Origin: Planctomycetota bacterium
GTDB taxonomy: Bacteria; Planctomycetota; Planctomycetia; Pirellulales; Pirellulaceae
NCBI GenBank assembly: GCA_014381825.1
Contig: JACNKX010000081.1
Location: 1-64,000, forward strand
Reading direction: 5' to 3'
Length of the DNA stretch: 64,000 bases
Positions 1,602-13,219 of this stretch are shown one piece after another. Numbering within the stretch: position 1 is the first letter of the stretch; the number at the start of each line of letters is the position of its first letter. The notes under the pieces were generated by a model. That model did not search any database. It had not been told where the DNA came from and saw nothing but the letters and a program-made list of their open reading frames with translations. A program made the position numbers and the translations under genes.

Positions 1602-3668
1602 TCATAACACCAGCCAATAGAAAAACACGATCGCGAAAACTAACCAAGATATTACCACCAGCAGGTGATGCTGAAGCGTGCGCGGCTCGACAACATGCAG
1701 CTTGCGTCCTGTTGCGTCGACCGCCTGTCCAATTTGTTCGGATGTCTTGTCGATGCGACGGACATCGATCGCTTCCCACAGCCATCGCGCCAGCCCGATG
1801 CTTGTGCCGCCGGTTCCTTCCACGGTGCGGTCGATGGCGCGCACGTCAATTACCTGCCAGAGCCATCGCGCCATACTCACGACCATTGCAGCAGTCCCAA
1901 AAATCAATCCGTTGATCAACCATTCGTCGACAGCACGCCAAAGCCATCGCGCGAATCCAATCACCGGTCGCACGATGAAGACATGATAAATTTCGTCGAC
2001 GTAAAACTTGTTTAGGAACAGCACGTACATCGACTTTGACAGGCTTGATCGCGCGGCGCGCGAGGGCTTTGGCTTGAGATGGAGCATGTAGGCAAAAGCC
2101 CAACCGCCGGCTGCGACGATCAGCGGAAGTGCGAGCATCAGAAAAAGGTTCGGCTGCCAAACAACTGTGTCGGAAACCGTTGGCTTCGCCAGAGCCAGTG
2201 CGAGGAAAGGTGCAAACCAACTCCAAACGCCAATCAGAAGGCCGATCAGCCCGAGCGCCCCCACGCCGATTGCCGTCAAATGCTTGAGCGAATAAAAGTG
2301 TGGCCTGACCGAACTCGTTGGATGAGGGTGAAACTGCGAAACAACTCCGCGAAAAAGATAGACGGCCGTGAAAAAGACGGTCAACAGACCGATCACCCAA
2401 AAGCCAAGCTTTGCGGCGATCGAATTGTGGACGGTCCACAGGCTTTCGTACGGCCCCGTAAAGATTAAGAACGGCGGCACGCAAGCGAGAATCAAGGCAC
2501 CCAGGTACAAGGACCAGGGCGGCTTCGATTCTTCCGATGCGTGCTGGTGATGTGCATGCGAGCCGGTTGCTTCGAGTTGGTTTCCGGTCGACAAAAACAG
2601 GAAGCCTTTCAAAAATCCGTGCGCCATCATGTGGAAGATCGCCGCCACGAACGCGCCGAGGCCGCACGCCATGATCATGAATCCAATCTGGCTGATCGTC
2701 GAGTAGGCCAGAATCTTCTTGATGTCGCTTTGTGTGAGCGAAACGATCGCGGCGAAGAGAGCTGTCGTTGCGCCGACGATGGCGATCACAGTCATGGCCA
2801 CCGGTGAGAGGATGACCAGTGCACTGAATCGGACCAGCAGGAAGGGTCCAGCATTGACCATCGTCGCGGCGTGAATCAACGCGGAGACCGGTGTCGGTGC
2901 TTCCATCGCATAGGGAAGCCACACGTGAAAGGGCACCTGCGCCGATTTCCCCAGACAGCCCATAAACAGAAGCAGTGTGATGATCGTGACCTTCGGGACA
3001 TGGAGTTCGTGGCCGAACCAGGAAAGCAGATTGAACGTCTCTTCAGCCATGTCAGGCGCTCGATCCAGAATTAGCTGGATGTCAAGCGTGTGAAACGTCG
3101 CGTAGGACAGCACAATGCCAAACAGCAATCCGACATCGGCGACGGCGTTCACGAGAAACGCTTTTGTTGCAGCTCGACACGCGGCAGGTCGATCGGATTG
3201 ATGTGAAATCAACAGATACGAACAGATGCCCATGATTTCCCAACTCATGAACATCATGAGCAGATTGCTGCTCATCACGAGCGTCACCATGCCGAACGTG
3301 AACAACGTCGTCACGGCAAAGAAGCGGCTATATCGCGCGTCGCCAATCATGTATCGCGCGGAGTATACGTGGACGACAAAGCTGACACCGGTAACCAACA
3401 GCAGCAACAATACGGTGAGCTGATCGATGTACAAACCCATGTCGATGATGAGGTCACCCGAGCGCAGAAACTCATAGAGCGGCACGGCAATCGCTTCACC
3501 ACGTGACACGACGTCGATGAAGGCGACAATCGAGATTGCTAGCGACGTCCCAATCGCCGTCATCGCCACGCGCCGGCTCTTCTCGCCCATCCAATGCCCG
3601 GCGAGCGCAATAATCATACTTGCCAACAGCGGCGAAAGTGGAATTAAAATGTAAAGCGCGGGAAACAA
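1602..3668 (-). CDS. nuoL: NuoL/MrpA-N-like subunit with C-terminal ARWLW repeats
   Basis: A 688-residue membrane protein of the NuoL/MrpA/DabB superfamily. It shows MFMSWEIMGICSYLLI, GKSAQVPFHVWLPYAMEAPT, ALIHAATMVNAG and KKILAYSTISQIGFM, the usual membrane glutamate, lysines and histidines. It is longer than E. coli NuoL (613). The extra length lies after about residue 540: a loop, three 27-residue repeats starting ARWLW (572-652), then a final membrane helix ending FYWLVL. A His-rich loop (HAHHQHAS) occurs near residue 375. The gene follows mrpD after a 145-nt gap holding a long palindrome, and precedes nuoM. With the separate MbhD/E gene it could replace a full-length MrpA; it could also act as the DabB partner of DabA. 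Family is certain, role inferred. Confidence 0.88.
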   Translation of the reverse strand: MFPALYILIPLSPLLASMIIALAGHWMGEKSRRVAMTAIGTSLAISIVAFIDVVSRGEAIAVPLYEFLRSGDLIIDMGLYIDQLTVLLLLLVTGVSFVVHVYSARYMIGDARYSRFFAVTTLFTFGMVTLVMSSNLLMMFMSWEIMGICSYLLISHQSDRPAACRAATKAFLVNAVADVGLLFGIVLSYATFHTLDIQLILDRAPDMAEETFNLLSWFGHELHVPKVTIITLLLFMGCLGKSAQVPFHVWLPYAMEAPTPVSALIHAATMVNAGPFLLVRFSALVILSPVAMTVIAIVGATTALFAAIVSLTQSDIKKILAYSTISQIGFMIMACGLGAFVAAIFHMMAHGFLKGFLFLSTGNQLEATGSHAHHQHASEESKPPWSLYLGALILACVPPFLIFTGPYESLWTVHNSIAAKLGFWVIGLLTVFFTAVYLFRGVVSQFHPHPTSSVRPHFYSLKHLTAIGVGALGLIGLLIGVWSWFAPFLALALAKPTVSDTVVWQPNLFLMLALPLIVAAGGWAFAYMLHLKPKPSRAARSSLSKSMYVLFLNKFYVDEIYHVFIVRPVIGFARWLWRAVDEWLINGLIFGTAAMVVSMARWLWQVIDVRAIDRTVEGTGGTSIGLARWLWEAIDVRRIDKTSEQIGQAVDATGRKLHVVEPRTLQHHLLVVISWLVFAIVFFYWLVL
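1713..1955 (-). repeat. three 27-codon tandem repeats inside nuoL
   Basis: Three consecutive units of exactly 81 nt encode FARWLWRAVDEWLING, MARWLWQVIDVRAIDRT and LARWLWEAIDVRRIDKT at their starts. The first ten or so positions of each unit are nearly constant; the tails diverge. The first unit runs into a hydrophobic stretch (LIFGTAAMVV). Each unit looks like an amphipathic helix with Trp and Arg on one face. The position is that of the long lateral helix and last membrane helix of NuoL. Confidence 0.9.
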
Positions 3669-3719: not shown

Positions 3720-3792
3720 GGGTGGCTGGGGTCGAGTCTTCGAGCCCCCAGCAACGACGACTGGGGGCTCGAAGACTCGACCCCAGCCACCC
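3720..3792. repeat. perfect 32-bp palindrome between mrpD and nuoL
   Basis: Two perfect 32-nt arms (3720-3751 and 3761-3792), starting GGGTGGCTGGGGTCGAG, flank a 9-nt loop CAACGACGA. It lies between the stop of mrpD and the start of nuoL. No T-run follows on the minus strand, so it resembles a REP/MITE-like planctomycete palindrome more than a classical terminator. In RNA it would be a very stable hairpin that could lower expression of nuoL and nuoM or protect the upstream message. Confidence 0.9.
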
Positions 3793-3813: not shown

Positions 3814-5322
3814 CTAGTTAGCTCCCAATCCCGCTGACTGGGCCACGTCACGGAAGACCCGAATGATCGGATCGCTACAAATGCCCATCGCGATGACCAC
3901 AATCGATGTTGCTGCAATGCTGAATCGAAGCGCAAAATGTGTTTCCACCTTTTCTGCATCGGCAGGCATTTCAGGCTCACTGAAAATGCGGACGAACAAG
4001 CGTTGAAAATAGGCCATGGTTAAAATGGTGGCGATAATTATTGCGGCGACCGCCCAATAATTCTGCGCCTCGATTGCGCCGAGGATGATGTGCCACTTTC
4101 CAAAAAATCCGCCCGTCGGCGGAATACCAATCATCGACATCGCCAGAATAATCAAGGTAGCGATAATCCACGGTGAACCGTTGCGAAGACTCGACAGGTT
4201 CTCGATTGTTCGCGTCGGGTGATGATAAATGGCGACGCCGGCAATGAAAAAGAGTCCGGCCTGCATGGCGGCATCGTTGATCAGATAGAACATGCTCCCG
4301 GCAAACGCTGTTTCGTTTCCCTGACTGACACCAATCAAGATGAGCCCGACATGTGAAATGCCGCCGTAGGCGAACATCCGTTTCACATCGTGTTGGCTGA
4401 GCGCCAGCAGTGCGCCGACGACGGCAGCGATCGCGCCGAAGATGCCGAGCAGCGTCAACAAATGTACTTGTCCGAACTCCGCCTTTGCGCCCAACACCCA
4501 AAACATAATTCGCACCCAGGCGTACAGCGAGACTTTGGTCATCAACGCGGCGAGCATCGGCGAAATCGCATCCGGCGCTCGGGTGTAGGCACCGGGCAAC
4601 CAGCCGTGCAGTGGAAATAGTGCCATTTTGATTCCGAGCCCGATGAACATAAACGTCGTCCCGCCGATGACCGCTTTGTTCGTTAGTAAATCCGGCTTGT
4701 CGGCCAGTTGTTGCGCCAAATCGGCCATGTTCAACGTGCCGGTCGTGGCGTAGAAAAAAACAACGCCTAACAAATAGAACGTGGCTCCCAAGGTTCCCAA
4801 AATCAGATATCGAAAAGACGCGATCAATGCTCGATCACCGGCAACACCGACCAGCGCGTATCCCGACAGCGCCGCCAGTTCCAAAAAGACGAAGATGTTG
4901 AACAAATCGCCAGCGAAGATAATGCCAGTCAGACTGGTGATCAGCATCAGGATTAATGTGTAATAGAGTACAACCTGCCGGCCTAGCGACCGCGGCGACA
5001 CCGGGCCACTGTAGATCAAACAAAGACTGGCAATCGCGCTGAGCGCAACGATCATGATGCTGGCCAGTCGATCGTTGACCCATTCGATGCCCAGCGGCGC
5101 CGAAGACGTGCTACCGCTGATCGGCCAACCGCCAAACGCGTATCGTGTTTCACCTTCGGTCAGCACGAGGACAAGATTGACGACCGCTGGGACACACATC
5201 GCAAAGACCGCCAAGAGCGCGATTGGACGACACCAACGGACACTCTTCGCCCCAACCATCGGCATGCAGATGGCGGAAAAAAAAGGAATCAGAAAGATGA
5301 TGATTGGCAGGTGTTCTCTCAT
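3814..5322 (-). CDS. mrpD: MrpD-type cation/proton antiporter subunit
   Basis: A 502-residue multi-spanning protein of the proton-conducting transporter family. The segment GDLFNIFVFLELAALSGYALV is typical of MrpD and MbhH rather than NuoN. Other landmarks are GIKMALFPLHGWLPGAYTRAP, ALMTKVSLYAWVR and KRMFAYGGISHVGLI. MrpD is one of the two antiporter-like subunits of Mrp Na+(K+)/H+ antiporters. Start and upstream mrpC stop overlap by 4 nt, so translation is probably coupled. It is the last gene before the 3720-3792 palindrome. Confidence 0.92.
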   Translation of the reverse strand: MREHLPIIIFLIPFFSAICMPMVGAKSVRWCRPIALLAVFAMCVPAVVNLVLVLTEGETRYAFGGWPISGSTSSAPLGIEWVNDRLASIMIVALSAIASLCLIYSGPVSPRSLGRQVVLYYTLILMLITSLTGIIFAGDLFNIFVFLELAALSGYALVGVAGDRALIASFRYLILGTLGATFYLLGVVFFYATTGTLNMADLAQQLADKPDLLTNKAVIGGTTFMFIGLGIKMALFPLHGWLPGAYTRAPDAISPMLAALMTKVSLYAWVRIMFWVLGAKAEFGQVHLLTLLGIFGAIAAVVGALLALSQHDVKRMFAYGGISHVGLILIGVSQGNETAFAGSMFYLINDAAMQAGLFFIAGVAIYHHPTRTIENLSSLRNGSPWIIATLIILAMSMIGIPPTGGFFGKWHIILGAIEAQNYWAVAAIIIATILTMAYFQRLFVRIFSEPEMPADAEKVETHFALRFSIAATSIVVIAMGICSDPIIRVFRDVAQSAGLGAN

Positions 5323-5744
5323 TCGATCTTCTTTAGCACCTCGTTCTCATCCAGACTGCCAAACCTGCGGTAAATCGCCGTGACCAAGGCCAGCGAAACG
5401 CCCAGTGTCGCAACTTGCACAACGATCGCCGTCAGCGTCAAAACATGTGGCAGCGGATTGGCGTACTCCGTGGGATCAATCTGGCCTGATTCGATATCGA
5501 CATCCCTCAGAATTGGGACCGTGGCGGGGTGGTCCTTGGCACTGACCGTAACCAGCAAGAAGATGACGCTCGTTTGCACAAGATACATCCCGACCAGTTT
5601 CTTCACCATGTTGGGGTGCGTCACCATAATGTAGAAGCCCCACAAGAATAGGATGACAAACGCGATGAAGTTTGGACGCTGAATCGCCGCTTCAACATGC
5701 TCGATCAACTCAGTCACGCGATGGCTCCGTATCCTCAGTGTCAT
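5319..5744 (-). CDS. mrpC: MrpC/NuoK-like subunit
   Basis: A 141-residue small membrane protein with three hydrophobic helices. The stretch NPLPHVLTLTAIVVQVATLG is the MrpC/NuoK signature. Length is slightly above the family norm (about 115) because of a basic N-terminus. The annotated start overlaps the end of mrpB by 35 nt; a shorter start is possible, but no good internal methionine precedes the first helix except near residue 39. MrpC contacts the antiporter-like subunits in Mrp complexes. Its place between mrpB and mrpD follows canonical Mrp order. Confidence 0.9.
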   Translation of the reverse strand: MTLRIRSHRVTELIEHVEAAIQRPNFIAFVILFLWGFYIMVTHPNMVKKLVGMYLVQTSVIFLLVTVSAKDHPATVPILRDVDIESGQIDPTEYANPLPHVLTLTAIVVQVATLGVSLALVTAIYRRFGSLDENEVLKKIE

Positions 5745-6168
5745 TGATCGGCGACAAACTAAACACGATCGAAATGGCGGTCACCGCGATGTCAACGGCG
5801 ACACCAATCTGTGTCATCAGGATTCCGAGATACCGCCGTCGCGCGTCGTCTGCTAATGGGATTTCCAGACTGGAATAATTCAAAAACTGACCGCCCATCA
5901 CCAGGCAAATCCCGCCGACACCGGCGAAGATGATTAATCCAACGCCGTCGCCATGCATAAGTTTTCTCGCCGCACGGCAAGGAACACCGTCTCGGCCATA
6001 AACAAGAATCCCAAGAATGAGGCTTGTCCCCAACATCACCCCACCCACGAATCCGCCGCCTGGTCCGTATTGACCGAAAAACAAAACGTAGAGCGCGAAC
6101 AATTGAATGAGCGGAATCAACATGCGGCTCATGGTTCGAACAATCACGCTGTCGTGAGGATTAATCAT
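5710..6168 (-). CDS. mrpB: MrpB-type subunit (MnhB domain)
   Basis: A 152-residue protein with four hydrophobic helices and the MnhB landmarks FFGQYGPGGGFVGG and a nearby LIPLIQLFALYVLF. The ORF track extends it to 6567, but that part is a shadow of the upstream gene; the ATG at 6166-6168 gives MINPHDSVIV and a 4-nt ATGA overlap with the preceding stop, the pattern used throughout this operon. The C-terminus is acidic (INDTEDTEPSRD). In Mrp antiporters MrpB sits beside the MbhE-like part of MrpA, whose equivalent is encoded directly upstream here. Confidence 0.9.
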   Translation of the reverse strand: MINPHDSVIVRTMSRMLIPLIQLFALYVLFFGQYGPGGGFVGGVMLGTSLILGILVYGRDGVPCRAARKLMHGDGVGLIIFAGVGGICLVMGGQFLNYSSLEIPLADDARRRYLGILMTQIGVAVDIAVTAISIVFSLSPINDTEDTEPSRD

Positions 6169-6695
6169 TTCGAATCTCTCCTCAACAACAGGGCACAGGC
6201 GATGCCGGCTGTAAAGATCACCGCCGTTTCGATCAGCGTGTCGAATCCTCGATAGTCCATCAAGACGGATGTCACAACATTCTCTGTGTCTGTTTTCTGG
6301 TAACTCTGTTCCAAGTATTCGGGCGAAACATGCACGCTGGCCGGTGACTTGGGGTCGGAAAACTCTGGCAAGTCTTCCGCGGCAAACAGCAACAAGAGTC
6401 CCAGCATTGGCAAGCCAAGAAATGCGATGAAAGGCACGGGTTGTCGTCGAATTTCCGTGTCTTTGGGCGACGCGTTGAACAGCGTCAACAGGAAAAACAC
6501 CGTCGCCAGTCCGGCACCCACGACCGCTTCCACAAACGCCACATCGACCGCCCCCAGCCACGCCCAAACGAGCGCAAGGACAAAACTGTATGACCCAAGA
6601 ATTAAAACCGCGCTAATCAGGTCCTTGACGATGATCGCGCCGGCGGCGGTCAACAGCAGCAGAATCAATAGCGGTATCTCAAACGAAAAGATCAT
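6165..6695 (-). CDS. MbhD/MbhE-type subunit (DUF4040), equivalent to MrpA C-terminus
   Basis: A 176-residue membrane protein in two parts. Residues 1-75 are MbhD-like, with three helices and VDVAFVEAVVGAGLATVFFL. The second half contains VTSVLMDYRGFDTLIETAVI, the MbhE/MnhB-N signature. In standard Mrp systems these parts form the C-terminal third of MrpA. Here they are a separate protein, with the NuoL-like gene 2.5 kb downstream supplying the N-terminal part. It overlaps mrpG and mrpB by 4 nt each. Split arrangements of this kind are known in Mbh/Mbx-type complexes; the function here is inferred from family. Confidence 0.85.
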   Translation of the reverse strand: MIFSFEIPLLILLLLTAAGAIIVKDLISAVLILGSYSFVLALVWAWLGAVDVAFVEAVVGAGLATVFFLLTLFNASPKDTEIRRQPVPFIAFLGLPMLGLLLLFAAEDLPEFSDPKSPASVHVSPEYLEQSYQKTDTENVVTSVLMDYRGFDTLIETAVIFTAGIACALLLRRDSK

Positions 6696-7024
6696 GCGTC
6701 TTCACGGCTCCAGGGTTTCAGACCGCTGCGATGAGCGGAGCGAACAGTCGCGTGAGCGATCACAGGATTCAGCAAATATAGCAGAATCAAGACGATGAGG
6801 ATCTTGACGGCGTTTGTGCTCAGGCCTTCGTAGAGTGCGAGACCACCCAAGACAAAAAATGCGCCCAGCGAATCCGTGAGCGACACGGCGTGAGACCGAG
6901 TGTAGACATCGGGCAATCGCAATACTCCAACCGCCGCGACAAACAAGAAAAACAGTCCCACAACGATCGATGCGATGGCAATCGGTGACATCACGTACAA
7001 TTCAACCCATTCAATCAGCGTCAT
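6692..7024 (-). CDS. mrpG: MrpG subunit
   Basis: A 110-residue, three-helix membrane protein. The motif GVLRLPDVYTRSHAVSLTDSLG is diagnostic of MnhG/MrpG. Length is normal for the family. It overlaps mrpF by 14 nt upstream and the MbhD/E gene by 4 nt downstream. MrpG is a small scaffold subunit of the antiporter with no known catalytic residues of its own. Confidence 0.93.
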   Translation of the reverse strand: MTLIEWVELYVMSPIAIASIVVGLFFLFVAAVGVLRLPDVYTRSHAVSLTDSLGAFFVLGGLALYEGLSTNAVKILIVLILLYLLNPVIAHATVRSAHRSGLKPWSREDA

Positions 7025-7292
7025 TGGCCAACTCCCGTCGCTCTTCGAGGTATTTCGCGATTGCTAATGATCCGACCAGGTTGATGAGCGCGTAGCCGGT
7101 CGATATGTCCACAAACATGTCGACCCGCCCATAAACCGTGCCAATGACGACGAGCAGGATTATCGCTTTCGTCGAGATTCCGTTCAGTCCCAAAACGCGA
7201 TCGAACACGGTCGGCCCGCGCATCACGCGATACAAGTACACCACGATCAGCAGCGTAATCGTAATCAACACGATCAGAAAAAAGATCTTCAT
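7011..7292 (-). CDS. mrpF: MrpF subunit
   Basis: A 93-residue protein with three hydrophobic helices. RVMRGPTVFDRVLGLNGISTKAI matches the MrpF consensus (RGPTxxDRVLAxNxxxT). It shares a 4-nt start/stop overlap with mrpE and a 14-nt overlap with mrpG. MrpE-MrpF-MrpG form one end of Mrp complexes, and the order E-F-G here is canonical. Confidence 0.93.
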   Translation of the reverse strand: MKIFFLIVLITITLLIVVYLYRVMRGPTVFDRVLGLNGISTKAIILLVVIGTVYGRVDMFVDISTGYALINLVGSLAIAKYLEERRELANDAD

Positions 7293-7768
7293 GCCGTCTC
7301 CTTGCTGCTTGTCACACGGGCGATCTGCTCGTCGAATCGAAAGGACGTCACATCTTCGGCGGACTCGGCGTCCATCGCGTGAACTTCAAGCTCATCGGAA
7401 TTTACTTCCACCGTGATGGTGCCAGGCGTCAAGGTGATCGAGTTTCCCAGCAGCACGATACCGGCGTCTTTGCGCAACTTGGTTCGCTGCCGAATCATTC
7501 TTGGGTCAATCGGCAGCGACGGATGCAGAATCAGCTTCGAAAGATGAAAACCACTTTGCAGGATGCGCCCCACAAGCCAGAAGTAATACCAAACGATTCG
7601 CGCCCGCGGGATCTCGAATCGAGTTTGCTCGCGGCTCCTGTTAAACCAGGCGACACCGAATGCACACAAAACACCCATGCTGACGTGGAGCCAGTCAAAA
7701 CTCTCCGACAACAGCAGCCAAATCAGAAAAAAGGCGAGCGTTTTGATCGCGAGGGGATTTGATTTCAT
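7289..7768 (-). CDS. mrpE: MrpE subunit
   Basis: A 159-residue MnhE-family protein: an N-terminal membrane region (LAIKTLAFFLIWLLLSESFDW), a second hydrophobic patch around YYFWLVGRILQSGFHLSKLI, then a soluble C-terminal domain containing LLGNSITLTPGTITVEV, the MrpE signature. The ORF track start at 7855 adds 29 residues that only read through a palindromic repeat; ATG at 7766-7768 (MKSNPLAIK) is preferred. It is the first mrp gene after dabA, separated from it by 83 nt holding that palindrome, and overlaps mrpF by 4 nt. Confidence 0.9.
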   Translation of the reverse strand: MKSNPLAIKTLAFFLIWLLLSESFDWLHVSMGVLCAFGVAWFNRSREQTRFEIPRARIVWYYFWLVGRILQSGFHLSKLILHPSLPIDPRMIRQRTKLRKDAGIVLLGNSITLTPGTITVEVNSDELEVHAMDAESAEDVTSFRFDEQIARVTSSKETA

Positions 7769-7790
7769 GGTGCTGTTCTCTGTTGTGGAA

Positions 7791-7847
7791 ACCCCGACGC
7801 GTAAGCGAGGGACGTTCGATGTTTGTCCCTCGCTTACGCGTTGGGGT
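7791..7847. repeat. 23-bp palindrome between dabA and mrpE
   Basis: Arms 7791-7813 (ACCCCGACGCGTAAGCGAGG...) and 7825-7847 pair over 23 nt with one mismatch, which is a G-T pair in RNA, around an 11-nt loop GTTCGATGTTT. It encodes PTRKRGT and SLTR peptides on either strand, which I recall as a recurrent motif of planctomycete REP-like elements. It sits 4 nt from the dabA stop, so it may act as an intercistronic hairpin tuning dabA against mrp expression. Confidence 0.88.
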
Positions 7848-7851
7848 CCTA

Positions 7852-10803
7852 TCAAATCTGCGACTCAGCCTGCCACGTGGCGTCAGGCAAGTATCGATGG
7901 AACTCTCCGGTATCCGGATCGACGGCGACCAGGTTGACCCATTGGTTGTGAAACAAGTGTTGTAATAGCGTGTGTTTGGCAATGATGTTAGTGATGCGGT
8001 CCGTCGGCGCTTCCAGGATTGCCAGCAGCCGCACCGGTTCGTGATAGTGTCGGCGGCCGTCGTTCACGCTTTGCAATGGCAAGCCGGATTGCAGGTCGCC
8101 ATGAGCACCGTGCATCACACCGACTCCCCCGACTACGTTGTGCGTTACTTTGCTGCCGCTGCCATAGACCGCTGGATCGACCGCCGAAAAGTAGTATTCC
8201 ATGCTAATCCACTGCGCGACGACGAGCGGGGCGTTCATGAGCGCTTCCAAAATCGTTCCTTCAGGATCGGAGTCCGGATCATAGGAGTGCAGAAACGCGC
8301 GTCCGCCCAAGTCGAGCCCTTTTGTCAGCGTCCGTCGGCCGAGGATGAATGCCGCGTTGCTCGAAAGTCCCCACTCTGGCCGGACGTTTGCCCAGTCGAC
8401 GGTGCGCGAGACCATATGATCCGCCGCGGCCTGAGGTGAGATCTCCGTTGGAGCATGCGGGATTCGATGGCATCGTTCAAGAGCCTGTTTAGCGCCAGCC
8501 TCTTTCAGGTCCTCGATCACTGAACGCAAGTCTTCGGCATGGCTCTCCGGCACATCTTCAATGTCATAGAACGAAACTTGATCGGTCGCCGTGTTGTGTT
8601 TGCCAGCCAGGAACCACGTGTCGTCTGGGATGTCGAGACCGTTTGCTTTCATTGCCTCGCGGACACTCGGTTGATTGCCCATCGCGGCGAAAACGCGCGC
8701 GTTCGGATCGCCGTGCCCGCCGCCGCAAGCGCCACAGTTGTACGCCGCAAAATACGGATTATTGTCCGCGTTGCTGCCATGGCCACAGAGTACGATGAAG
8801 CGGCCAAAGTTTTTCGTCAAACCAAACGCCCGAAGCCCCTTCTCGACAAACGTCGCTTGTTCAGCCACGCTGAATCCATGCGGCAGCCCCTCGGAAGCAT
8901 CGCCTTCACCATCATCGTCCCGATCGATTGGTATCCGCGTCGCGACCGAGCGCGAAAACCACTCGACCGACCGCGCTTTGATCGACTCATAAGGCTTGCT
9001 CAAGAACGTCTTGCCAATCAATCGCGCGCTATAGAACAAACCTAGCGCGTCGATCAACATCATCGAGCCAACGGGATTGCTTTTTAGATCATGAAACAGG
9101 TGTTCGCCGAGACGGTTGAATCGCGACGCCGCGCCATACGTTGTCAGTGACTCATCCTGACCAGTACGCGGCTCCTCATGAACTTCAAATCCCGGTGCTG
9201 CAATCACGGGGCACAACGCCGCCTGTCCGTCATTGTCGAACGCCCGAAAGCTGATTGGCAAGCCAAAGAAACCAGCGAAACCAAAAGTCTCGTACGGCCC
9301 TTGCGCTTCGACGTGCCGGCGAAACGACTCGGAACGCGCGTCGATGCACAACACGAATTGAGCCCGTGGCCGTTCTTGCGCCTCAGCGATCTTGCCACGA
9401 TGATCGGCCAGTCGTGCAAGCAATCGTTCACGATAACTTGTCTCCAGCGCGTGCAACCAGACCAGCCCGTGCCGGTCCGAGGGAAAATCATCCAACCATC
9501 CAAGCAACGTTGCGATGTCCGACGCAGCAAGACTTTTGATGTCATCAGGCCGCAGTCCAAGGAATTGCGCGAGATGAAACAAGCGCCACCCATCTTTGCA
9601 AATCGCGGCCGTTTCGAGATCTACCGAATGCGAGTCGTTGACCAGTTGTCGAAACTCGTCGGAGTTGTTTTGCCAGTAATTGACTAGCGAGGAAAGGGTC
9701 CCTTCGATTCCCCATCGGCGACGACAAAACGCTTCGACAAGTTCTGCTTCATAAAAGAGACAGACTGCGAGATATTGAACCGGATCAATCCTTCGCTGCT
9801 TTTGAGCCGGATAACTCGGGTTGTCGCCCAGCCAGCGGATGAATCCCGACCAGCCGGGCAATTGGGCCAGCATCCGCGACAAATACTCCACGCGACGCTC
9901 GGCGGGAATACCGAGCCGATCAAGGCCGAGTGCGATGGCATCTTCCGGCGTATCGGGCAACTCGCGGATCTTTTTCGCAATTCGTTTGATGCCCACCAAA
10001 CGGCCGGACCAATCCCGTGTCGCCAGGTCGCGCCAGATTTGGTAAAAGCCTTGTTTGCGATCTGGCATTTCCCACCCCGACATACCTTCGTCGAGAAATG
10101 CGGCGTTCCATTTGATCATCTGATCATTGATCTGGTCGACGATTGTGGCTGCTGCGAGCGACCCAAGCCAATCGCTGATCGTTCGATCGATGGGAAGCAT
10201 GATTTCGGGGTCATCCGCCTCTTCATCGGACCGATCCATCTTGCTCACCGCTGCCAGCGAACTGTCCCAAAGCTCGCGAATGAAGGATGGGTCGACGTCT
10301 TGATCTGTCTGACAGTCGTCCGGCAAGTCGTTTCGAAGTCGCGTTGTCGCCTTTCCTGCGCTCAGCGTCCAGTCCAACAAATCTGAAGCCAACGAGTCTA
10401 GACCGAACAATAAGTGCAAACGCTGCACGTGCAATGCCTCGACTTGCTGGTTGCCAATTGAAACAGATTGCTTCGTGGCATGAGGGCCAACCTCTTGCAG
10501 CGCTTGACGAACCGCATCGTCCGAGATGCTTCCATCGCGATACACCTGACGATATTCATCATTTGGGATGTACCCGTTGCCCCCCAGAACGTTTTTTGCC
10601 TTACGCACCGCGTCGTCAAACGGCAAAGATTCCCAGCCGCGAAGTGGATTGCGATAAGCAAACGTCTTCATCGGCCAGGACTGGGCAATCGGCTTACACG
10701 CCTCCGCGACCTCATCGCGCACGCGATTCCGTTCTTCTGGGGAAAGCTGCATCGCGCCCTCACCCAATACGCTGTGGTTTTCAAGGTCGGGAAGTAATTG
10801 CAT
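7852..10803 (-). CDS. dabA: DabA-type inorganic carbon transporter subunit (DUF2309)
   Basis: A 983-residue protein of the DUF2309/UPF0753 family, normal length being 800-1100. DabA is a soluble, beta-carbonic-anhydrase-like zinc protein that works with a NuoL-like membrane partner (DabB) to draw CO2 into the bicarbonate pool using the ion gradient. Zinc-site residues are visible: C486 and D488 in FVLCIDARSE, H675 in VLCGHGSNAD and C690 in AAYNCGACGGG. The 2- and 15-residue spacings match characterised DabA. No membrane helix or signal is seen, so it should be cytoplasmic and membrane-associated. It lies 49 nt after the SulP gene and before mrpE. The usual adjacent single dabB is absent; three candidate partners (MrpD-, NuoL- and NuoM-like) follow. 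Confidence 0.92.
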   Translation of the reverse strand: MQLLPDLENHSVLGEGAMQLSPEERNRVRDEVAEACKPIAQSWPMKTFAYRNPLRGWESLPFDDAVRKAKNVLGGNGYIPNDEYRQVYRDGSISDDAVRQALQEVGPHATKQSVSIGNQQVEALHVQRLHLLFGLDSLASDLLDWTLSAGKATTRLRNDLPDDCQTDQDVDPSFIRELWDSSLAAVSKMDRSDEEADDPEIMLPIDRTISDWLGSLAAATIVDQINDQMIKWNAAFLDEGMSGWEMPDRKQGFYQIWRDLATRDWSGRLVGIKRIAKKIRELPDTPEDAIALGLDRLGIPAERRVEYLSRMLAQLPGWSGFIRWLGDNPSYPAQKQRRIDPVQYLAVCLFYEAELVEAFCRRRWGIEGTLSSLVNYWQNNSDEFRQLVNDSHSVDLETAAICKDGWRLFHLAQFLGLRPDDIKSLAASDIATLLGWLDDFPSDRHGLVWLHALETSYRERLLARLADHRGKIAEAQERPRAQFVLCIDARSESFRRHVEAQGPYETFGFAGFFGLPISFRAFDNDGQAALCPVIAAPGFEVHEEPRTGQDESLTTYGAASRFNRLGEHLFHDLKSNPVGSMMLIDALGLFYSARLIGKTFLSKPYESIKARSVEWFSRSVATRIPIDRDDDGEGDASEGLPHGFSVAEQATFVEKGLRAFGLTKNFGRFIVLCGHGSNADNNPYFAAYNCGACGGGHGDPNARVFAAMGNQPSVREAMKANGLDIPDDTWFLAGKHNTATDQVSFYDIEDVPESHAEDLRSVIEDLKEAGAKQALERCHRIPHAPTEISPQAAADHMVSRTVDWANVRPEWGLSSNAAFILGRRTLTKGLDLGGRAFLHSYDPDSDPEGTILEALMNAPLVVAQWISMEYYFSAVDPAVYGSGSKVTHNVVGGVGVMHGAHGDLQSGLPLQSVNDGRRHYHEPVRLLAILEAPTDRITNIIAKHTLLQHLFHNQWVNLVAVDPDTGEFHRYLPDATWQAESQI

Positions 10804-10852: not shown

Positions 10853-12241
10853 TCAATCCTCTCGAACGACTGAAACGGTTTCGATGGGTTCCAGATCCGG
10901 GACGGTAAACTTCAATCGCACCAAGTAAAACAAGGCGGTGAAGACAATCACCGCAGTATTCAAGTCCTTCACTAAAGTGACCACCGCCGTGCCCGCAATG
11001 AAAAACATCTCGCGGTGGCCCACGTCGAACAACCCGGTTGGATCGCGTCTTCCCAACAGTCGCCGGACATAAATCACACACGGTCGCCAGTCGAAAACGT
11101 CGTAGCCGACCTTGAAGAGAATCCCAGTAAACACGGCCACCGGGATGGTGCTGATGTAATCCTGAAAAATGAGCATCTCGACGAGCGCGAAGATGCCCAC
11201 CGCCACGCCCGCAACCCGCCATGTCGCGCCTTCGTTGAGGATCAACACCGATCGGATCGTGGCCTGCGCGCCGGGGATGCCGCCCAAGCAAGCCACCGCG
11301 GCATTTGCGGCGCCCTGCGCGGCGAGTTCCTGATTCTGCTTGGTCCGCTCATCGCGGCCAAACTCCTCGGTCATCTTCTTGTCCACGACCAACGACGTCA
11401 AAAGCGTGTCCAGATAGCACAGCATCGTCAATTGCAAAGCGAACGGAATCGCGAGCCAAACCAGTTGCGCGCTCCAGTCGGTCGGCACGTTTTTTTGCAC
11501 AACGGCAACCCAAGCGCCAACCGAATTCTCGATCTTCTCGGTTTGCACCATCTGGATATCGACACTCATCAATTGCACGACAATAGTCACCGCGAGAATC
11601 GCGATCAGCGTTCCAGGAGGAATAAAGGCCCTCCAGCGAGAAGAGAAACGGCGAGTAACCATCGGAACGGCAAAGGCAATCGCCAATGCGGACAATGCCA
11701 CGGCAATGTTGACAGCCAGCGCCCCGGAAAGCCGTTCCTGACCGCCGAGGCCGAACAGCTTCTTTGTCTGATCGACCCAAATCAGAATCGCAATGCCGTT
11801 CATGAATCCGGAAATGACCACCTTGGGAACGATTTGAATAAACCGTCCCAAACGACAAATCGCCGCGATGACCAGAATGACGCCGCAAAGAATGAGTACA
11901 AGGTTGACGAACTGCACGGGGTCGGCGCCCGGAAATGCCTCAAGCAGGCCTTTCCCCGCATACTGACGCGTCGACGCCGCGTACGCCATGATCAGCACCA
12001 TCACGGCGGTCATGGGAGCGGTGGGTCCCGAGGTCTGAACGCGCGTGCCGCCGAACAGGGCCGTGATCAGTGCGATGATCCCGGCCGAGAGGATCCCTGC
12101 AAAGGCCCCTCGCTCGGACAGAATTCCGAAAGCCGCGCCAAGACTGATCGCCACGAAACTGACCGCCAGGCCTGCGACAAGATTCTTGGCCAGTTCGCCT
12201 GCGAAGTTTGAATTAGAATTCTGCAAAGAATCCGTTGCCAT
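10853..12241 (-). CDS. SulP-family anion transporter lacking STAS domain
   Basis: A 462-residue membrane transporter. The N-terminal region LVAGLAVSFVAISLGAAFGIL and GGTRVQTSGPTAPM carry the SulP core signature, and LGGIPGAQATIRSVLIL is the helix 8-10 region. SulP proteins carry sulfate, bicarbonate or other anions; BicA of cyanobacteria is a Na+/bicarbonate symporter of this family. After the last hydrophobic segment only about 20 residues remain (LEPIETVSVVRED), so the cytoplasmic STAS domain is missing. Position between a beta-carbonic anhydrase and dabA supports bicarbonate as substrate; this is inference from context. Confidence 0.87.
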   Translation of the reverse strand: MATDSLQNSNSNFAGELAKNLVAGLAVSFVAISLGAAFGILSERGAFAGILSAGIIALITALFGGTRVQTSGPTAPMTAVMVLIMAYAASTRQYAGKGLLEAFPGADPVQFVNLVLILCGVILVIAAICRLGRFIQIVPKVVISGFMNGIAILIWVDQTKKLFGLGGQERLSGALAVNIAVALSALAIAFAVPMVTRRFSSRWRAFIPPGTLIAILAVTIVVQLMSVDIQMVQTEKIENSVGAWVAVVQKNVPTDWSAQLVWLAIPFALQLTMLCYLDTLLTSLVVDKKMTEEFGRDERTKQNQELAAQGAANAAVACLGGIPGAQATIRSVLILNEGATWRVAGVAVGIFALVEMLIFQDYISTIPVAVFTGILFKVGYDVFDWRPCVIYVRRLLGRRDPTGLFDVGHREMFFIAGTAVVTLVKDLNTAVIVFTALFYLVRLKFTVPDLEPIETVSVVRED

Positions 12242-12359
12242 ACATCCGATCCCTTATTCACTCTCTGATGACTGAGAAGTCTAGAGGCAGTTTCAAAATA
12301 TCATTGGTTCGCGGAGGTGTATTCCGACGATTCACTGGTGTAACTCATGACCATGTTTC

Positions 12360-13025
12360 CTAGATGGACGGCAATTCGCGCGTGGCGGCTGGAGCGGTGA
12401 AGCCTGCTCCTTCAATGAGGACGAACTGACCAACTTGAGGGCGATAGCCGCAGACCTGTCCTGTCTCGAACTCGTAGACCCAGCCGTGAAGATTCAGCGT
12501 CTTCCTGCCCAATGCCGCGGCAACCGTCGGATGCGTTCGCACGTGTTCCAGTTGGACAAGTACGTTTTCTTCCACCGTTGCCGTCAAGCGGGCGTTCGCT
12601 TCCGAAATGTGTTCGTAGTTCTCTTGCATGATGCGCTGCGTGGAATCGGCGTAGGACAGCCAACTGCGCACCGCCGGAAGATCATCGAGCTTGCCCGGAT
12701 CGAGTACGCCTTTCATCGCTCCGCAATGCGAGTGGCCGCAGATCACGATATCCTTGACCCCCAGGGCACTCACTGCGAATTCGATGGTCGCCGCTTCACC
12801 GCCATTGAGCGTCCCGTAAGGTGGAACAATGTTGCCGGCATTGCGCATGATGAACAGCTCTCCCGGTTCGGTTTGCGTCAACAGCGACGGATCGATCCGC
12901 GAGTCGGAGCAAGTGATAAACAACGCCAACGGATGCTGGCCATCGATCAGCGTTTCGAACAATCGCTGCTTTGAACTGAAGATGTCTGTCTGAAACTGAT
13001 GAATGCCTTCAACGAGCTTTTGCAT
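12360..13025 (-). CDS. beta-carbonic anhydrase
   Basis: A 221-residue beta-class carbonic anhydrase interconverting CO2 and bicarbonate. Zinc ligands C39, H98 and C101 lie in ITCSDSRID and [12 protein letters not shown], and the D41/R43 dyad is present. The ORF track start at 13172 adds 49 residues without family similarity; ATG at 13023-13025 ([10 protein letters not shown]) has GGAGAT upstream and begins at the family's usual place. No signal peptide is seen with this start, so it should be cytoplasmic. It is 118 nt upstream of the SulP gene on the same strand and would equilibrate imported bicarbonate or CO2. Confidence 0.93.
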
Positions 13026-13219
13026 GAATGGGATCTCCACGGCATTTGTCGGTGTAAGAGGACTTCGCGCTAGAAATCCACGGCAACGCGACTGTCGCAG
13101 TATTGGCGGAAAATGTGAATCTGACCGGCAGCCACCACAGCCGAATCGAATGGACTCAGCAGGCGCGAACAATTACCTTAACATTGGCGGGAACGCGATC
13201 CCCAGAGAAAGAGCGCAGC

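Follow-up and report, generated by a model that had tools for sequence, protein, structure and literature searches.

The role of the lateral helix (HL) of respiratory complex I, whether as a piston, a strap or a stator, is a long-standing question. It arises again in a planctomycete contig, of which the first 64,000 nucleotides (the window, meaning the whole stretch analysed here) include a gene for a NuoL-like antiporter subunit that ends in three tandem 27-residue units and lies in an operon with DabA. What these units are, and what a NuoL-like protein of such an operon would use them for, can be approached through its relatives, and these show that ordinary NuoL has one module, the window protein three, and its closest relatives one to four, with gain and loss of whole modules.

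The three units are contiguous, 27 residues each, and begin FARWLW, MARWLW and LARWLW, filling positions 1713-1955 exactly as the first-pass annotation had placed them. The best 27-residue self-match of the window protein scores 88 (BLOSUM62), compared with shuffled maxima of 38 for the C-terminal region (300 shuffles) and 42 for the whole protein (30 shuffles), and the three-unit repeat is far above chance. Pairwise identity between the units is 9/27, 9/27 and 14/27 for amino acids and 40/81, 36/81 and 46/81 (44-57%) for nucleotides, and Tandem Repeats Finder reported no tandem array at the repeat at the DNA level; together these indicate that the duplication in the window is old, presumably kept by selection on the protein. 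No further ARWLW was found in any of the six frames of the window.

The gene order on the minus strand is beta-carbonic anhydrase, SulP, DabA, MrpE-F-G, MbhD/E-like, MrpB-C-D, NuoL-like and NuoM-like, with the coordinates collected in the table. MrpD was assigned by family models and the small Mrp subunits from their order, their size and their conservation in orthologues, and the expected DabA is indeed present. The contig starts at window position 1, 85 bases past the nuoM stop, which is where the visible operon ends. The window also encodes proteins typical of planctomycetes (PSCyt1, PSCyt2, PSD1 and DUF1501). SulP and beta-carbonic anhydrase genes (10856-13172) lie directly upstream of dabA, and with the operon they look like a single island for inorganic-carbon acquisition.

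Table. Features of the Dab-Mrp-NuoLM operon and of the lateral-helix units in the window
Feature	Position	Strand	Basis or remark
NuoM-like antiporter subunit, 496 aa	86..1576	minus	TIGR01972, 617 bits
NuoL/MrpA-N-like antiporter subunit, 688 aa	1602..3668	minus	PF00662, PF00361; TIGR01974, 490 bits (above cut-off)
HL unit 3, residues 626-652, LARWLWEAIDVRRIDKTSEQIGQAVDA	1713..1793	minus	distinct last unit
HL unit 2, residues 599-625, MARWLWQVIDVRAIDRTVEGTGGTSIG	1794..1874	minus	middle unit, gained or lost among relatives
HL unit 1, residues 572-598, FARWLWRAVDEWLINGLIFGTAAMVVS	1875..1955	minus	corresponds to the one HL segment found in ordinary NuoL
MrpD-like antiporter subunit, 502 aa	3814..5322	minus	family models
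MrpC-like	5319..5744	minus	order and size; operon order conserved in orthologues
MrpB-like	5710..6167 (start approximate; mechanical ORF 5710-6567)	minus	order and size
MbhD/MbhE-like, MrpA C-terminal domain as its own gene	6165..6695	minus	PF13244, PF20501
MrpG-like	6692..7024	minus	order and size
MrpF-like	7011..7292	minus	order and size
MrpE-like	7289..7855	minus	order and size
DabA, 983 aa	7852..10803	minus	PF10070, 877 bits
SulP-family anion transporter, possibly BicA-like	10856..12253	minus	PF00916
beta-carbonic anhydrase	12363..13172	minus	PF00484

Modelling and hydropathy place TM15, the HL and TM16 at the C-terminus of the window protein. In complex I NuoL of Nitrospira and Nitrospinota, a profile of the unit reaches 21-24 bits at the HL, and the remainder of these proteins stays at or below -1.7 (mean background about -25, standard deviation about 7). 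Among 52 further NuoL sequences, a search with this profile found a single copy each in 33. Window-type units and the complex I HL have the core LWxxVDxxxID in common. On this profile evidence the unit and a segment present once in ordinary complex I NuoL, namely the HL between TM15 and TM16, are homologous, which agrees with the earlier proposal that the repeat lies within the lateral helix and extends it. In complex I and in Mrp, the antiporter-like subunits are bridged by the HL, which connects TMH15 with TMH16 along the cytoplasmic side (PMC7419157, PMC9568556, PMC3274701).

An AF2 model built from 79 sequences (pLDDT 82, pTM 0.83), which superseded an earlier run with 36 sequences (pLDDT 68), predicts a C-terminus that is nearly all helix (554-606, 609-633 and 637-687), and Foldseek searches with this model gave complex I NuoL chains as the top PDB matches. 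The helix at 554-606, which spans unit 1, is of high confidence; unit 2 is helical with a short break at 607-608 and low confidence, unit 3 is a low-confidence helix, and the breaks recur at an equivalent position in units 2 and 3. The pLDDT of 45-60 over these two units makes a straight extended helix a prediction, and hairpins or floppy surface helices are possible alternatives for them. Hydrophobic periodicity is about 3.9-4.2 residues per turn, off that of an ideal helix, and this ambiguity led us to reject a perfect helix-phase reason for the length of 27 residues, which equals 7.5 ideal turns, so that successive units would face different ways in an unkinked helix.

A protein scan of about 85,000 genomes, sampled and many of them incomplete, placed the closest relatives in Nitrospirales and Nitrospinota, with 49-54% identity over nearly full length, and the other sampled NuoL proteins of the window's own phylum at about 42-45% over partial length. 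By profile search the gene is carried by 17 of 296 Nitrospirota and 22 of 77 Nitrospinota genomes. The two genomes of the same genus that were examined have no window-type gene, and one of these has a different DabA adjoining a NuoL-like gene. A sampled, single-sequence query had suggested that the family contains no other carrier, which was rejected once the whole operon was found in the same-family genome G990 (locus L206). The window and L206 pair in the tree (100/99) within a clade otherwise made up of Nitrospirota and Nitrospinota sequences; the tree has several long branches, and horizontal transfer, with a direction that we infer, would be its simplest reading.

The conserved Dab-Mrp-NuoL-NuoM operon occurs mainly in nitrite-oxidiser lineages, and all complete operons have an identical gene set, which defines a Dab-Mrp-NuoLM inorganic-carbon operon common to these lineages and to planctomycetes. 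Most loci have dabA just upstream, and the others that were checked have it at another site in the genome, except G818, whose contig ends inside the operon. The lack of a nearby DabA in L041, L137 and L138 was considered as a sign of independence and rejected, as DabA is found elsewhere or past a divergent operon. In L137 and L138, this divergent second operon (DabA, an unknown protein of about 365 residues and a short DabB-like protein) separates the main DabA from the mrp genes. A different Nitrospirota operon (L146, L147 and L114) has DabA-NuoL-NuoM with no adjacent Mrp genes, and its NuoL carries one unit or two and differs in the last transmembrane segment. The DabA open frame of L044 (2270-6076) encodes 1269 residues, compared with about 1000 in relatives.

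Thirty-eight orthologues, including those of the window and L206, have a readable C-terminus, and units were counted in them by sequence matching, or by eye where a unit is degenerate (L145, L148, L167, L168 and L206). One unit is present in two of these proteins (L167 and L168, where it is degenerate and the motif lost), two in 8, three in 21 and four in 7, so that copy number varies among NuoL-like proteins encoded with DabA, and the close orthologues carry units, against the possibility that the repeat was peculiar to the window. The spacing is nearly always 27 residues; it is 26 in L146, and one residue is missing from the last unit of L148. W4 and D10 occur in every one of the 70 internal units, W6 in 69, L5 in 66 and D15 in 64. 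The units are amphipathic and strongly conserved, as the first-pass annotation described them. On a tree of the core sequence at least 12 copy-number changes are required, and close relatives differ by one unit (L154 has three and L161 two). Adjacent units have 90-93% nucleotide identity in L160 and 89% in L140, which indicates that unit duplication is still going on.

Measured from the NKxYxDE motif at its start to the centre of TM16, the HL of Dab-Mrp NuoL is 70, 97-100, 123-126 or 150-154 residues long with one, two, three or four units, respectively, and 97 in L206. HL length is therefore quantised at about 70, 98, 125 or 152 residues. By the same measure, the ordinary complex I of Nitrospira and Nitrospinota, with three antiporter-like subunits, has an HL of 68-71 residues, and 2M complex I, with four pumps, one of 95. 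An HL insertion of about 26 residues has been described in 2M complex I NuoL and in Manganitrophaceae MrpD2, where the HL likewise gains roughly one unit at this site (PMC9040806); that paper, citing Chadwick et al. 2018, explains the extension in 2M complex I as space for a fourth pump. The 2M-sized step recurs up to three times in Dab-Mrp NuoL, and the window protein has two such extra 27-residue units. The view of the first-pass annotation that no such repeat is known in NuoL thus holds in part: a single insertion was already described, and three- or four-unit HLs, or variation in copy number, were not found in the open-access literature searched. The HL extension itself is known, and the modular one-to-four-unit variation is the new part. 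One operon gene set with HLs of one to four equal modules, some of them in close genomes, provides a natural length series in which the effect of HL length is directly testable.

Comparison with known systems places the window protein close to complex I NuoL/Nqo12/ND5, with which it shares PF00662 and PF00361, the TM15-HL-TM16 arrangement, a homologous HL unit and the best structural matches. It passes the TIGR01974 cut-off for NuoL (490.1 versus 407.5 bits) but falls below the NF005141 equivalog cut-off (482 versus 556), its HL is about 55 residues longer, and its visible operon has Mrp, MbhD/E and DabA neighbours rather than NuoA-K or NADH-module genes. With MrpA (7QRU, 6Z16) it shares an HL along the cytoplasmic surface and, judging for the small ones by order, size and conservation, probably the operon partners MrpB-G, but it ends at TM16, the NuoJ-like domain is encoded apart (6165-6695, MbhD/E-like), and the system has an additional NuoM and a much longer HL. 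The TM15-TM16 distance is 63 in Priestia MrpA versus about 106 in complex I; an exact one-unit step down to MrpA was rejected, since the MrpA HL is shorter but not by a clean 27-residue step. DabB of Halothiobacillus DAB2 (PMC13144422) is likewise a NuoL-like subunit encoded with DabA, although the HL of DabB2 is short and a simple DabA operon encodes a single antiporter-like subunit, whereas the window operon has three, all candidate membrane partners of DabA, together with Mrp small subunits. The Ca. Nitrospira alkalitolerans locus (PMC7784846) has NuoL- and NuoM-like genes after mrpD, interpreted there as extra Mrp subunits, and a SulP-type bicarbonate transporter nearby; that paper mentions neither a repeat, DabA nor DUF2309, and its description of the locus suggests identity with the window operon.

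The reading that we favour, and consider rather more probable than its negation, is that the HL is modular and variable in length and serves as a surface strap within a hybrid Dab-Mrp-NuoLM complex. Homology and modelling show the helix, its function as a strap is taken over from complex I and Mrp, and the operon suggests that the complex exists and how it is laid out. Gene order suggests that the operon proteins form a single hybrid complex that may couple CO2 hydration or uptake of the DabA type to ion-translocating subunits of the Mrp type. The extended HL is probably a strap on the cytoplasmic surface, by analogy, and it would be longer by about 40 Å per unit if the helix is continuous, or about 80 Å beyond the complex I HL in the window protein; it would probably pass the three antiporter-like subunits and then the Mrp small-subunit region before its TM16 anchor. 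The one-unit HL of L167 and L168 has the complex I length and thus suits three antiporter-like subunits; the extra length of a multi-unit HL must cross Mrp small subunits, DabA or a neighbouring protomer, or be folded up. A strap with an adjustable overhang would tolerate changes in unit number, which may shift through unequal recombination between tandem units, whereas such changes would be incompatible with a rigid piston of set length. A cytoplasmic HL strap is supported by PMC7419157 and PMC9568556, and there is evidence against an HL piston in E. coli (PMC3274701). Against the favoured reading, a loop of 6-7 residues inserted in the E. coli HL between NuoL and NuoM cuts pumping sharply (PMC3274701), which indicates that HL length or continuity matters there.

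The first-pass annotation had offered the repeat as a possible docking platform for DabA; on this reading, the Arg- and Trp-rich units would lie on the cytoplasmic surface and bind DabA. Both the HL and DabA are on the cytoplasmic side, and the two genes keep company, with dabA just upstream in most loci and, G818 excepted, elsewhere in the genome in the others. Unit number varies widely while DabA is always present, and the solved DAB2 structure has the DabA finger motif at the displaced TM12-15 of a DabB with a short HL (PMC13144422). Complex I operons that lack DabA can have two-unit HLs too, namely 2M complex I (L185-L188) and the C194 complex I of the window's own genome (L038), the latter with a spacing of 27, and the DabB-like proteins encoded in the simple DabA operons of L137 and L138 stop shortly after the HL begins and lack both the repeat and TM16. 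A role specific to DabA docking is therefore not supported, and we regard this reading as unlikely. DabA-free complex I NuoL thus shares the repeat in part, though not at copy numbers of three or four. Its HL has one unit or two. The second complex I of the same genus (L038, L196 and L197) has a very large NuoL of 936-969 residues and a very large NuoM of 712-721 residues, and its HL has two units at a spacing of 27 in an operon where L, M and N are the sole antiporter-like genes.

Near-neutral turnover, in which recombination between tandem units lets copy number drift at little consequence for function, would account for the many copy-number changes and very recent duplications, and recombination alone yields changes of whole units. 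This reading appears improbable against the invariance of W4 and D10 and near-invariance of W6, a 27-residue spacing held across deep divergence, and a complex I HL whose length barely varies.

A ruler, with one unit per extra antiporter-like subunit, would put about five of these into the window complex, which would then contain NuoM or MrpD more than once. The difference between the four-pump and three-pump HLs in Nitrospira, of about 26 residues, is consistent with this, as are the similar insertion that accompanies extra pumps in Manganitrophaceae (PMC9040806), the matching size of the 27-residue unit and the clearly shorter HL of MrpA, which has two antiporter-like subunits. In 2M complex I the extra unit pairs with an extra pump gene, but all complete Dab-Mrp operons have only MrpD, NuoL and NuoM with one to four units alike, and no extra antiporter-like gene accompanies the HL extension of the window. 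Extra antiporter genes as the cause of extra units were rejected, as the number of PF00361 genes per genome shows no relation to unit number (within Nitrospinota, 9 with four units, 9-12 with three, 9-11 with two and 9 with one). The planctomycete C194 complex I has its two-unit HL in an operon with L, M and N only, and exceptions are noted in PMC9040806 as well. From the constant MrpD, NuoL and NuoM, the PF00361 counts and C194, HL length is not a simple readout of pump-gene number, and the Dab-Mrp series breaks the simple rule that equates the two, which leaves the ruler with a low probability. Similarly improbable is the variant in which the HL is a modular ruler whose unit number sets the copies of NuoM or MrpD, so that three genes would yield four to six antiporter-like subunits.

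Two hairpins lie within the operon. Between mrpD and the NuoL-like gene, at 3720-3792, is a perfect 32-nt inverted repeat with a 9-nt loop (RNA fold -81 kcal/mol, z -12.8), which has roughly ten related copies scattered across the genome and resembles REP/MITE-type elements. Near the dabA-mrpE junction, at 7791-7847, is another hairpin, with 23-nt arms that are 96% complementary.
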